From assembly GCA_013178165.1 (NCBI GenBank), contig JABLXG010000025.1, forward strand, positions 1 to 46,311: DNA of 46,311 bases, written 5' to 3'. Below, in pieces: positions 23,855 to 28,067 of this stretch. The position numbers and the translations under genes were made by a program. Source of the DNA: Anaerolineae bacterium. Lineage in GTDB: Bacteria; Chloroflexota; Anaerolineae; Aggregatilineales; Ch27. Each line of letters starts with the position of its first letter. The stretch's first letter is position 1. The notes under the pieces are model-generated. The model ran no database searches. It had not been told where the DNA came from and was given only the letters and a program-made list of their open reading frames with translations.

Positions 23855-25948
23855 ATGGCTCATCCCACAGGCAAAACCATGCGCCGCGCCATTGCCACTG
23901 GCGCGGCTCTACTCTGGCTGGCGCTCGTCCTGGGGCTGTACTACTGGGTGCATAAACCCCTGACTCCGCCGCTGGCCGAGGCGATCGGCGGGGCAATCCT
24001 GGACGCGGCAGTAGCTGCCCTGTTCGCCCTGCTGGCAGGCGGGCTGGGGACGCGCCTGCTGGCCCGCCTGGACCTGAGCTTTCTCAGCCCGGCGGAACGA
24101 CTGGCAACGACCCTGCTGATCGGGCTGGGAGCGCTCGCCCTGTTGATCCTGGCCGTCGGGGCGGTCTCGCTCAGCCCGCTGAGCATGGCAGCGTTGCTGC
24201 TGGCTGTGGCGGCGCTGACCCGGCGGGAAACGCTAACCTGGGCGGGAGACTGGCAGGGCCTTCTGCGTGGCGGTCTGCCCCGCGACCGGTGGGGACGGTT
24301 CCTGGCCTTTATTGCTCTGATTCTGCTGGCGATCGCCTTCCTGCTGGCCCTGCTCCCACCGTCGATGTGGGATGTGTTGACCTATCATCTGGCAGGGGCG
24401 GCCCAGCACGTCCTCAACAGCCGCTTCTCTGCTGTTGAGCACAACCATTTCCTTGGCTTCTCACAACTGGTCGATACGCTTTACGCCGGCCAGCTGGCGC
24501 TGACCGGGCGGCTGACCGGCGCCGCACTGCTGCACTGGATCGTCGGCGTCGGCCTGTTACTGGCAGCTGGCGGATATGCCGCCCGGCGATCCGGCCCAGC
24601 GGCGGGCTGGGCGGCAGTAGGCGTCCTCCTGGCCGGGCGGACGATCTGGCTGGAGATGACCTACGCCTACGCCGATCTGTTGCCAGTAGCGCTGGCTGTC
24701 GTGGCCGTCTCCGCAGCGGAACGGTGGGACGAGGTGCGCCGCGCCGGCGAGCTGGAAGGCGCGGAGACGCGGCGGGGGGTGGGCTATCTCCTGCTGGTGG
24801 GCGCAGCAGCGGGTCTGGCCATGAGCACCAAGTACACTGTGGTATGGCTGGGCGCGGCGCTGGGGCTGTTGGTGCTGTGGTTAGCCCGGCGGGAAGCCTG
24901 GAGAAGCGTCCTGTCTTACGGCCTGCTCTACGGGCTGGTCGCGGCGGCGATTCTGGCCCCCTGGTTGATCCGCAATGCGCTGTGGTACGGCAACCCGTTC
25001 TACCCGCTGCTCTTCGATGGTGGAGAGATGGACGCAATCCGCCGGGCATGGTACAGCCAGCCCGGTTCCGGGCTGATCTACGGCGGCGGAGCCTGGCAAC
25101 TTCCGCTGCTGCCGCTGACGGCCAGCGTCCTGGGGGTAGAAGGAGCCGGGACATACAACACTGACATCGGCCCGCTGTTCGTAATGCTGACACCACTGCT
25201 CCTGCTCACCCGGCGGCAGCTCACGGCGGCGGAGCGGGCGACGGTGCGCTGCGCCCTGATCGTGGTTGGGGCGGTGACAGTAGCGTGGGTGTTGAGCGCT
25301 GCCTTCGGGTCGTACATCAGCCTGCAAACGCGACTGGTGCTATACCTGTTCGGTCCGCTGGCAGTCGTGGCCGGCATCGCTCTGGAGTCGCTGCGGCGGC
25401 TGCCGGATAAGCCGCTCAACCTTGGCTTCGTTGTACGGGCGATAGTGGCACTGGCGTTGATCTTCACGGTGGGTGATGCCCTGCGGACACTGGGGCGCAA
25501 GGGCGTACAGATTTACTTCTCTGGCGAGGCGGGCTATCGCGAGCGTTACCTGGAGCACGCGTTGGGCTGGCACTATGGGGCCATGCGCCAGGTCAACACC
25601 TTGCCGGAGGGGACGACGGTACGCTTCCTTTGGGAGCCGCGCTACCTCTACTGCGACGGCGACCGGCTAAACTGCTGGCCCGACTCGCTGATGGACGGCT
25701 GGTACTACGCGCGGCGGGCAGTTGACGATGGCTCCCCGGCAGCGATCGCGGCGGCGTGGCGGGCAACGGCGGATTACCTGCTGGTGTACGAATTCGGGCG
25801 GACGTTCGAGCGGGAGAACAGCATTCTCTACACGGCTGCCGACTGGGCCGCCTGGGAGGACTTCGTTACCGGGCACCTGGTTGAAGTGTGGCGCGGCGGC
25901 AACGATGGCGCAGCAGCACAATACATCCTGTACCGCTGGCGGGATTGA
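23855..25948 (+). CDS. GT-C type polytopic membrane glycosyltransferase-like protein
   Basis: This 697-residue protein has many membrane segments across residues 10-545 and a soluble C-terminal part of about 150 residues. The first extracytoplasmic loop carries PPSMWDVLTYHLAG, with the acidic residue expected of GT-C fold enzymes, which use polyprenyl-phosphate sugars outside the membrane. It resembles ArnT/PMT-like proteins in layout only. The start is uncertain: ATG at 23855 gives the longest product, while ATG at 23879 (MRRAIATGAALLW) begins directly at the first membrane helix. Confidence 0.75.
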   Translation: MAHPTGKTMRRAIATGAALLWLALVLGLYYWVHKPLTPPLAEAIGGAILDAAVAALFALLAGGLGTRLLARLDLSFLSPAERLATTLLIGLGALALLILAVGAVSLSPLSMAALLLAVAALTRRETLTWAGDWQGLLRGGLPRDRWGRFLAFIALILLAIAFLLALLPPSMWDVLTYHLAGAAQHVLNSRFSAVEHNHFLGFSQLVDTLYAGQLALTGRLTGAALLHWIVGVGLLLAAGGYAARRSGPAAGWAAVGVLLAGRTIWLEMTYAYADLLPVALAVVAVSAAERWDEVRRAGELEGAETRRGVGYLLLVGAAAGLAMSTKYTVVWLGAALGLLVLWLARREAWRSVLSYGLLYGLVAAAILAPWLIRNALWYGNPFYPLLFDGGEMDAIRRAWYSQPGSGLIYGGGAWQLPLLPLTASVLGVEGAGTYNTDIGPLFVMLTPLLLLTRRQLTAAERATVRCALIVVGAVTVAWVLSAAFGSYISLQTRLVLYLFGPLAVVAGIALESLRRLPDKPLNLGFVVRAIVALALIFTVGDALRTLGRKGVQIYFSGEAGYRERYLEHALGWHYGAMRQVNTLPEGTTVRFLWEPRYLYCDGDRLNCWPDSLMDGWYYARRAVDDGSPAAIAAAWRATADYLLVYEFGRTFERENSILYTAADWAAWEDFVTGHLVEVWRGGNDGAAAQYILYRWRD

Positions 25949-25967
25949 CCGATCAGGGGCAGCGGGC

Positions 25968-27134
25968 CTAGAACAGCGGCAATTGCACCGGCGGGCGGTG
26001 ACCATCGAGGAGGATGTACGGGGCGGCGCGGTTGGCCTGCACACCGAGCCGGTTGAGCGTAGCCAGATCGCGGATCGTTCCACGCCGCCGGGCGCGCAGC
26101 AGTTGCTCCACGCCTTTCGGCCCGATCCCTGGCACGCGTAGCAGCGTCTCCCGGTCGGCGCGCATGATCTCCACTGGCGCGGTCAGCAAATGGGCGTCGG
26201 CCCAGGCGCGCTTGGGATCAACATCGAGGCGCAGGTTACCCACCCCTTCAAAGGGTAGCTCCTCCACATCCCAGCCGTAATCACGCAACAGGAAGCTGGC
26301 CTGGTACAGCCGCCGTTCGCGCTGGGGATCGGTCGGCGGCAGGTTCTCGAAAGGCGTATCGATCACCGGGCTAAAGCCAGAGTAGTAGGCCCGCTTCAGG
26401 CCAAGCTGGCGGTACAGGCGGGCGCTCAGACTCAGCAACTCCAGGTCCGTGTCGCCCACCGCGCCGACCACGAACTGGGTCACGCTGCTGGCCCAGCGAC
26501 GCTCCGGGTTCGATTGGCGGATGCGCTGCGCCCACTGCAGGCGTAGCAGCAGGTCATCGCTGAAATCCTTACGGGGGGCCAGGGCATGCAACCGTTCGGG
26601 TGTAGGTGCTTCCAGGTTGATCGACACGCGATCGGCAATCTGCATGGCGCGAACGACCTGGTCGTATTCCGCGCCGGGCATGATCTTGAGGTGGATGTAG
26701 CCCCGGTAGCCGTACTTATGACGGATGATCTCGCCCGTATCGAGGATACGATCCTGCACCGCTGCGCCGCCCTTGATGATACCTGACGAGAGAAAGATGC
26801 CCTCCACTACCCCGGCCCGCACCAGCCTGTCGAAGGCGGCGGCCAGCTCATCCGGCGAAAAGGTCTCGCGGCGCATCTGTGTCCGCCCGGCGCGGAACGG
26901 GCAGTAGAAGCAGTTCTTCTCGCAGGCGGTGGTGATCATCGTCTTCATGACCGGCTTGAGACCCTGAGGGGTGGTCACATGGGTGACACAGGGCAGCAAC
27001 TCAGGGTCGGGCGCGGGGCGACTTTGCAGCGTCAGGCGCTCGCTCAAGGGGGCGTCACCCGCCGGCTCAAACTCGGTGATGGCGCCCAGCCGGGCCAGAC
27101 GGGTCAGGGTATCGGGGACCACGTGAATGTTCAT
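25968..27134 (-). CDS. Radical SAM protein with C-terminal helix-hairpin-helix, DNA repair/modification type
   Basis: This 388-residue protein has the radical-SAM cluster motif CEKNCFYC (CX3CX2C) near residues 69-76, followed by ETFSPDELAAAF and EGIFLSSGIIKGG, then YIHLKIMPGAEYDQV. This is the pattern of the putative DNA modification/repair radical SAM group often encoded beside a uracil-DNA-glycosylase-like partner; no such partner is in this window. Residues about 333-380 form a helix-hairpin-helix DNA-binding region (RVPGIGPKGVEQLL). The promoter lies so close that the predicted transcript begins at the ATG, with no ribosome site, and a LexA-type palindrome lies inside the promoter. SOS control is therefore suggested. 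Confidence 0.9.
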   Translation of the reverse strand: MNIHVVPDTLTRLARLGAITEFEPAGDAPLSERLTLQSRPAPDPELLPCVTHVTTPQGLKPVMKTMITTACEKNCFYCPFRAGRTQMRRETFSPDELAAAFDRLVRAGVVEGIFLSSGIIKGGAAVQDRILDTGEIIRHKYGYRGYIHLKIMPGAEYDQVVRAMQIADRVSINLEAPTPERLHALAPRKDFSDDLLLRLQWAQRIRQSNPERRWASSVTQFVVGAVGDTDLELLSLSARLYRQLGLKRAYYSGFSPVIDTPFENLPPTDPQRERRLYQASFLLRDYGWDVEELPFEGVGNLRLDVDPKRAWADAHLLTAPVEIMRADRETLLRVPGIGPKGVEQLLRARRRGTIRDLATLNRLGVQANRAAPYILLDGHRPPVQLPLF

Positions 27135-27140
27135 AAATCT

Positions 27141-27169
27141 ATAATACCGAACTTATGTTCTGAGGTCAA
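27141..27169 (-). promoter_or_regulatory. Promoter of the radical-SAM/HhH gene with LexA-like box
   Basis: Minus-strand TTGACC (27169-27164), a 17-nt spacer and TATTAT (27146-27141). The spacer contains GAAC-ATAA-GTTC (27160-27149), the Firmicutes/Actinobacteria-type LexA consensus. Six nt separate the -10 from the ATG, so the transcript is predicted to be leaderless. Confidence 0.7.
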
Positions 27170-27345
27170 TAGCGACAGCAGAGGCAACAGGGGCCTTGTC
27201 AACTCTGGCGGCATGGCGGCAGACAGCGAGCAGGTCAGGGGTTGGGAGGCCGGGAGGCTGAAGACACAAGGCCAGAGGCAGGTGGTAGAGCAAACAAGCC
27301 GGGAGAACGGGAAGCCAACCCGCTGCCCCATTGCCTGCTGAAAAG

Positions 27346-27395
27346 TAAAGCTCCAGGTCGTGTGAAGAGGGGGAAACACACAGCCCGGAGCTTTA
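27346..27395 (-). terminator. Long stem-loop, possible minus-strand terminator
   Basis: TAAAGCTCC (27346-27354) pairs with GGAGCTTTA (27387-27395), and an inner GTGTG/CACAC pair (27360-27364 with 27377-27381) extends the stem across 5-nt internal loops. On the minus strand ACTTTTC follows, so it may end read-through from the PEBP-family gene. Confidence 0.45.
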
Positions 27396-27574
27396 GAGGG
27401 GAAACTGCCTACAATATAGCACGAGTTCGTAAGAAATTAAAGTGCCAAATTTCACCATAAAAGGGTTCTTTAGGCAAAAATGGGCAAAATTCACGAATTT
27501 CTAAGCTTTTCCGGGGCTCAAAGCCAAGCTGAACACGCAGAGATTGCCGCCACAAACACGCCCGGACAACCGTA

Positions 27575-27598
27575 GCGGCGCGACTCGCATCGCGCCGC
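27575..27598. terminator. Hairpin after the PEBP-family gene
   Basis: GCGGCGCGA (27575-27583) and TCGCGCCGC (27590-27598) form a perfect 9-bp stem with a 6-nt loop, 8 nt beyond the minus-strand stop at 27606. The tail is not T-rich on the minus strand; on the plus strand CTTTCG follows. Confidence 0.5.
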
Positions 27599-27605
27599 CT
27601 TTCGC

Positions 27606-28067
27606 TCACCGCCGGGCATAGGTGCCCATCAGCCGGGTTTCCGCCAGGATATGCCCGCGCAATGCCCGCAGCAGGTCGTCGCGGCGCGCTCCCGGCCCCA
27701 GCTGGAGCAGTGTATTGAGGGCGTACAGGGTGAAGAAATAGCGGTGCGTGCCCCGCGGCGGGCACGGCCCGTTGTAGCCCACACGGCCCCAGCTATTGAC
27801 GCCCTGCCTGGCCCCGCCGGGCAGCGTCTCCTGCGGCGGTATCCCTTCGGCCAACCCGGTTTCTGTAGCCGGAATGTCGTAGATCACCCAGTGGATCCAC
27901 GTCCCCGCCGGGGCGTCGGGATCATCACAGATCAGCGCGAAGGCCCGCGTGCCCGCCGGCGCGCCCTGCCAGGCCAGCGGGGGAGAGAGGTCATCGCCAT
28001 CGCAGGTGTAACGGGATGGGATGGTCGCGCCGCTGGCGAACGCGGCGCTGGTGATTTCAAACGCCAT
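27606..28067 (-). CDS. YbhB/YbcL-type PEBP (Raf kinase inhibitor-like) protein
   Basis: This 153-residue single-domain protein has the usual length of bacterial PEBP-family members. Conserved blocks are YTCDGDDLSPPLAW, CDDPDAPAGTWIHWVIYDIP and GYNGPCPPRGTHRYFFTLYAL, which form the anion-binding pocket. The cellular role of bacterial members is poorly known. AGGAGGG lies just upstream of the ATG. It lies 55 nt beyond the stop of the small nucleotidyltransferase gene on the same strand, so may share its transcript. Confidence 0.93.
   Translation of the reverse strand: MAFEITSAAFASGATIPSRYTCDGDDLSPPLAWQGAPAGTRAFALICDDPDAPAGTWIHWVIYDIPATETGLAEGIPPQETLPGGARQGVNSWGRVGYNGPCPPRGTHRYFFTLYALNTLLQLGPGARRDDLLRALRGHILAETRLMGTYARR

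Follow-up and report, generated by a model that had tools for sequence, protein, structure and literature searches.

Layout of the radical SAM promoter

The window, by which we mean the whole 46,311-nt stretch of Anaerolineae DNA analysed here, contains a radical SAM gene whose promoter, LexA-type box and start codon are held within 38 bases. The features are these:

27169-27164, minus strand: -35 hexamer TTGACC, from a promoter consensus scan; 71 distinct orthologue promoters have TTGA or TTGC at the matching position
27160-27149, minus strand: predicted LexA operator (SOS box) GAACATAAGTTC, within the 17-nt spacer; lexA of this genome has a box of that type, and most orthologues conserve it
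27146-27141, minus strand: -10 hexamer TATTAT; T-12, A-11 and T-7 are invariant in 55 aligned orthologue promoters
27134-27132, minus strand: ATG start codon; transcription is predicted to begin at its A (27134, +1), after a gap of 6 nt from the -10 hexamer
25968-27134, minus strand: radical SAM gene (388 aa) with a C-terminal ComEA-type helix-hairpin-helix; COG4277/TIGR03916-like, divergent

In the window sequence the minus-strand order can be written as TTGACC-TCA-GAACATAAGTTC-GG-TATTAT-AGATTT-ATG. A consensus scan of 25900-27700 returned TTGACC-17-TATTAT as the sole sigma-70-like promoter (10 of 12 matches, 0.4 expected). The distance from the -10 hexamer to the ATG is so short that a Shine-Dalgarno site cannot fit in the predicted transcript, and none is evident at any alternative in-frame start within 66 codons of the gene. 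An earlier note on this DNA had described GAAC-ATAA-GTTC in the spacer of this promoter, an ATG 6 nt beyond it and no ribosome site; each element is present at the coordinates listed above, and the later starts have no evident ribosome site either. The window contains no RNA elements or tRNAs.

A divergent radical SAM protein

The protein joins a radical SAM domain (PF04055) to a C-terminal helix-hairpin-helix related to ComEA. The cysteines of its CX3CX2C cluster motif, TACEKNCFYC (C71, C75 and C78), are invariant in 18 orthologues. Its AlphaFold model (mean pLDDT 85.6) was matched best by HydE in Foldseek (E 1e-9), and also by ThiH and BioB-type radical SAM barrels; motif, Pfam domain and barrel match place the protein in the radical SAM superfamily. 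Among curated families the closest is TIGR03916, described as a putative DNA modification/repair radical SAM protein, with 246.3 bits over positions 53-379 of 415, a score that leaves the protein outside that family as curated (cut-off 343.5). We take COG4277 to correspond to the TIGR03916-type radical SAM/HhH protein.

Two candidate relationships were rejected. Spore photoproduct lyase is absent among the 50 fold matches listed, which are of HydE, ThiH, BioB, MiaB and lipoyl synthase types. A linked UDG or DUF4130 partner was not found beside the gene: the UDG genes lie on other contigs, with none next to the radical SAM gene in the window, and DUF4130 (PF13566) is absent from the genome. This TIGR03916-related protein is a divergent branch without linked partner genes. 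The helix-hairpin-helix tail hints that the protein binds DNA, and our best guess is therefore an enzyme that repairs DNA or modifies its bases.

Upstream regions of orthologues

We compiled 92 distinct 60-nt upstream regions of orthologues, which are related sequences and not independent trials. The exact box occurs in 45 of them (0.05 in shuffles), and a box with at most one mismatch in 80 (1.7 in shuffles), usually ending 13-14 nt before the ATG. As a control we took the starts of 505 other ORFs from these loci, which yielded 6 exact boxes and 14 with at most one mismatch. Pairwise identity is 59% within the promoter versus 26% upstream of -36, the latter being about chance for a flank that is unalignable. 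Shine-Dalgarno-like runs are absent from 88 of 91 orthologue upstreams.

Our scoring of the gap after the -10 hexamer breaks ties toward 6; because of this bias we used in its place the unbiased distance from TTGAC to the start codon, which is 35 in 48 orthologue promoters and 36 in 13 (61 together). Among the 71 promoters with TTGA or TTGC in register, base -1 is a pyrimidine in 70, and positions -2 to -6 are mostly purines; the remaining 21 upstream regions have no base preference before the start. Base -1 played no part in any step by which these promoters were selected.

In a protein tree built from 108 rows, both sides of the midpoint root include members with the layout, Ktedonobacteria among them, with scattered exceptions, a distribution that fits an old state followed by several losses. 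Ktedonosporobacter rubrisoli and Thermosporothrix hazakensis are two named relatives that show it. The strict layout, as scored, is missing in 24 of the 108 rows. The tight packing of the predicted elements is conserved in most relatives examined. Two loci (L072 and L101) have the radical SAM gene second in an apparent operon, behind a gene for a protein of ~280 aa of no assigned family. Immediately before the start of that first gene stands an exact GAACATATGTTC box, so that predicted SOS control can, it appears, persist where the leaderless start has been lost.

LexA-type boxes at lexA, recA and other genes

In Gram-positive bacteria (Bacillus, Mycobacterium, Corynebacterium) the LexA box is GAAC-N4-GTTC. 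The nearest named records to this DNA are Anaerolineae MAGs of the Chloroflexota, some of them labelled Aggregatilineales. The organism belongs to the Chloroflexota, so this consensus of Firmicutes and Actinobacteria was only a lead needing a test. The genome has one full-length LexA (contig C15), with HTH and S24 self-cleaving peptidase domains, and its promoter reads TTGACA-TC-GAACTGCTGTTC-GCC-TATACT, a 17-nt spacer with the box placed as in the radical SAM promoter. Full-length LexA was found in 29 of 30 genomes searched. We examined 29 lexA loci, that of the source genome among them; in 27 a box that is exact or has one mismatch lies within 150 nt, mostly placed between -35 and -10 as here. 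The leaders that follow the lexA promoter vary widely in length, and lexA is not leaderless in the loci examined.

The recA gene of the source genome has a degenerate box, GAATATATGTGC, with two mismatches. Among 26 recA loci, 15 have a box that departs from the consensus at no more than one base (shuffling predicts 1.8), typically GAAC-N4-GTGC, and in loci L229-L253 the variant AGAAC-N4-GTGC-TA recurs downstream of a TTGC or TTGAC hexamer. The variant suggests that recA in these relatives may be under weaker LexA control.

Other boxes in the same genome lie upstream of genes for SRAP (SOS response associated peptidase), DNA polymerase I and a LexA-like HTH protein. LexA-type boxes were also seen at two paralogous genes for membrane proteins of no assigned family with a FELFNFATTEYAL-like motif (L038:1720-1761 and L034:1666-1677); the promoter of one of them is flanked by a pair of boxes spaced 30 bp apart.

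A predicted leaderless start

Bacterial transcription is usually initiated with a pyrimidine at -1 and a purine at +1. The pyrimidine at -1 in nearly all in-register promoters, together with the A at +1, is this signature for a transcription start at the A of the ATG. The -10 hexamer also falls within the 5-8 nt of the start codon by which leaderless genes are recognized, with no Shine-Dalgarno site. We infer that the radical SAM mRNA begins at the A of its ATG and is leaderless.

The gene could be under SOS control and still not be leaderless, if its transcript started further upstream or translation began at a later in-frame codon; promoter geometry alone would then fix the spacing. A GTG at codon 5 would offer such a start, and some orthologues without the strict layout, L074 for instance, appear to have a leader with a ribosome site. 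We consider this unlikely. Promoter geometry cannot fix the position of the ATG, since the same promoter in lexA precedes leaders of very different length, and neither the start distance of 35-36 nor the base preference at -1 sits well with it. The N-terminal residues up to a conserved PD motif align from this ATG, and the later in-frame starts, as noted above, have no evident ribosome site.

Occurrence of the fused module

A search of 396 genomes from the class for the pattern box-TATNNT-5 to 7 nt-ATG gave about 76 matches in 70 genomes, versus about 9 for the reversed control pattern. Thirty matches were fetched as loci: (i) 14 were identified directly by BLAST as this radical SAM protein; (ii) others encode a LuxR/GerE-type HTH protein of ~137 aa (L214 and L215, and L210 by resemblance); (iii) others again encode a ~190-aa protein (L211-L213) without a Pfam or NCBIfam match. 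In the relatives that have them, the second and third families have a predicted leaderless SOS-type promoter upstream of the matched ATG. Perhaps, and here we are in some doubt, GAAC-N4-GTTC underlies a LexA regulon of the Chloroflexota. A few of its genes (radical SAM and, in relatives, the LuxR-type HTH and ~190-aa genes) would be made leaderless by the fused module, and hence would be translated during damage by a route unlike that of SOS genes like lexA.

Predicted SOS control

LexA represses by occupying a site in the promoter, and is released by RecA-stimulated self-cleavage. The layout, the match to lexA, the conservation and the +1 signature are taken directly from the sequence. Occupancy by LexA, induction by damage, the position of the true 5' end and the repair role are what we infer: the radical SAM gene very probably has an SOS promoter and would be LexA-controlled, damage-induced and leaderless, its product likely acting in DNA repair or base modification. 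The LexA encoded on contig C15 would bind GAAC-N4-GTTC between -35 and -10 and block RNA polymerase. Upon DNA damage, RecA filaments would form and LexA would cleave itself, emptying the operator; a polymerase of the housekeeping type could then start transcription at the A of the ATG. The resulting mRNA would be leaderless, with ribosomes reading from its 5'-terminal AUG.

The box may instead be real but bound mainly by another repressor, such as the small LexA-like proteins that lack the self-cleaving peptidase, in which case the gene would respond to a different signal or the small protein would compete with LexA. Small proteins with the LexA DNA-binding domain and no peptidase are common in these genomes. 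Here one is represented by an ORF with LexA_DNA_bind only (73-92 aa, contig C29; L047:1722-2013), with its own GAACATTTGTTC box upstream, and many relatives have short LexA-type matches in open frames of ~100 aa. We rate this reading as improbable, slightly more so than a start other than the leaderless one. Full-length LexA is nearly universal among the genomes searched, its promoter mostly has the same box, and the boxed genes of this genome include those for SRAP and DNA polymerase I (polA). Such small proteins may share the operator without replacing LexA, and could serve as non-cleavable competitors of it.

Taken by itself the 8-bp box is weak. By chance, 0.31 occurrences are expected per window, and 26 of 100 shuffles of the window contained it; the 4.19-Mb genome has 35 sites versus 29 for the reversed control pattern, so hardly any enrichment, and we rejected the bare count as evidence. 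The case must therefore rest on position and conservation, and the promoter position, the matching lexA layout and the conservation among orthologues do take the box far beyond chance. A chance palindrome within an ordinary constitutive promoter, which the frequency of the pattern in shuffled windows and its slight genome-wide enrichment would allow, can be dismissed as extremely improbable given the retention of the box upstream of most orthologues and the matching lexA promoters.

The preferred reading, SOS control by LexA with a leaderless transcript, agrees with most of what the earlier note had proposed. It had suggested looking for the box at lexA, where it is present in the same-genome promoter at the same position, and at recA, which in this genome has the two-mismatch form, and aligning the upstream regions of orthologues, most of which have the box and place the start codon at the predicted +1. 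Its proposal of LexA (SOS) control thereby gains support from the lexA promoter and the orthologue boxes, and its proposal of leaderless translation from the start spacing and the pyrimidine at -1.

Comparison with known systems

We found neither a Chloroflexota LexA motif nor a fused operator-promoter-start module in the literature searched, although that literature takes in few subscription journals and its silence does not establish novelty. What we regard as new is the fused module, with its conservation, together with a LexA motif for Chloroflexota. It would give this large, little-studied phylum a sequence-based definition of the SOS operator, and it supports a role in DNA damage for the radical SAM enzyme family. 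It also offers a natural example of a repressor site, a promoter and a start codon that are conserved together, in which one can test directly why a stress gene stays leaderless.

The box here has the same core inverted repeat and spacing as the Gram-positive LexA box, and likewise stands at lexA, with a variant of it at recA in many relatives; it differs in being found in the Chloroflexota. The SOS core of Gram-positive bacteria and Balneolaeota includes a radical SAM protein (PMC7739468), perhaps of the present family.

The UDG-COG4277 operon (COG1573-COG4277) is reported to be SOS-regulated in Bacteroidetes, Verrucomicrobia and Alphaproteobacteria (PMC8565304). SOS control of this family, which the earlier note proposed in the form of damage induction, was thus already reported in other phyla. 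The two systems would share the protein family and its predicted LexA control. They differ in that the radical SAM gene here has its own promoter, with no adjoining UDG and no DUF4130 in the genome, and in that the LexA motif is a different one and the mRNA is predicted to be leaderless.

Leaderless genes are known from Actinobacteria and Deinococcus-Thermus; among the Chloroflexi, 4 of 12 genomes have about 5% of their genes leaderless (PMC3160421). As in those genes, a TATAAT-like box lies ~10 bp before the start codon, and there is no Shine-Dalgarno site. Unlike in those genes, the predicted repressor operator lies inside the module, and the spacing of all its parts is nearly fixed across the class.
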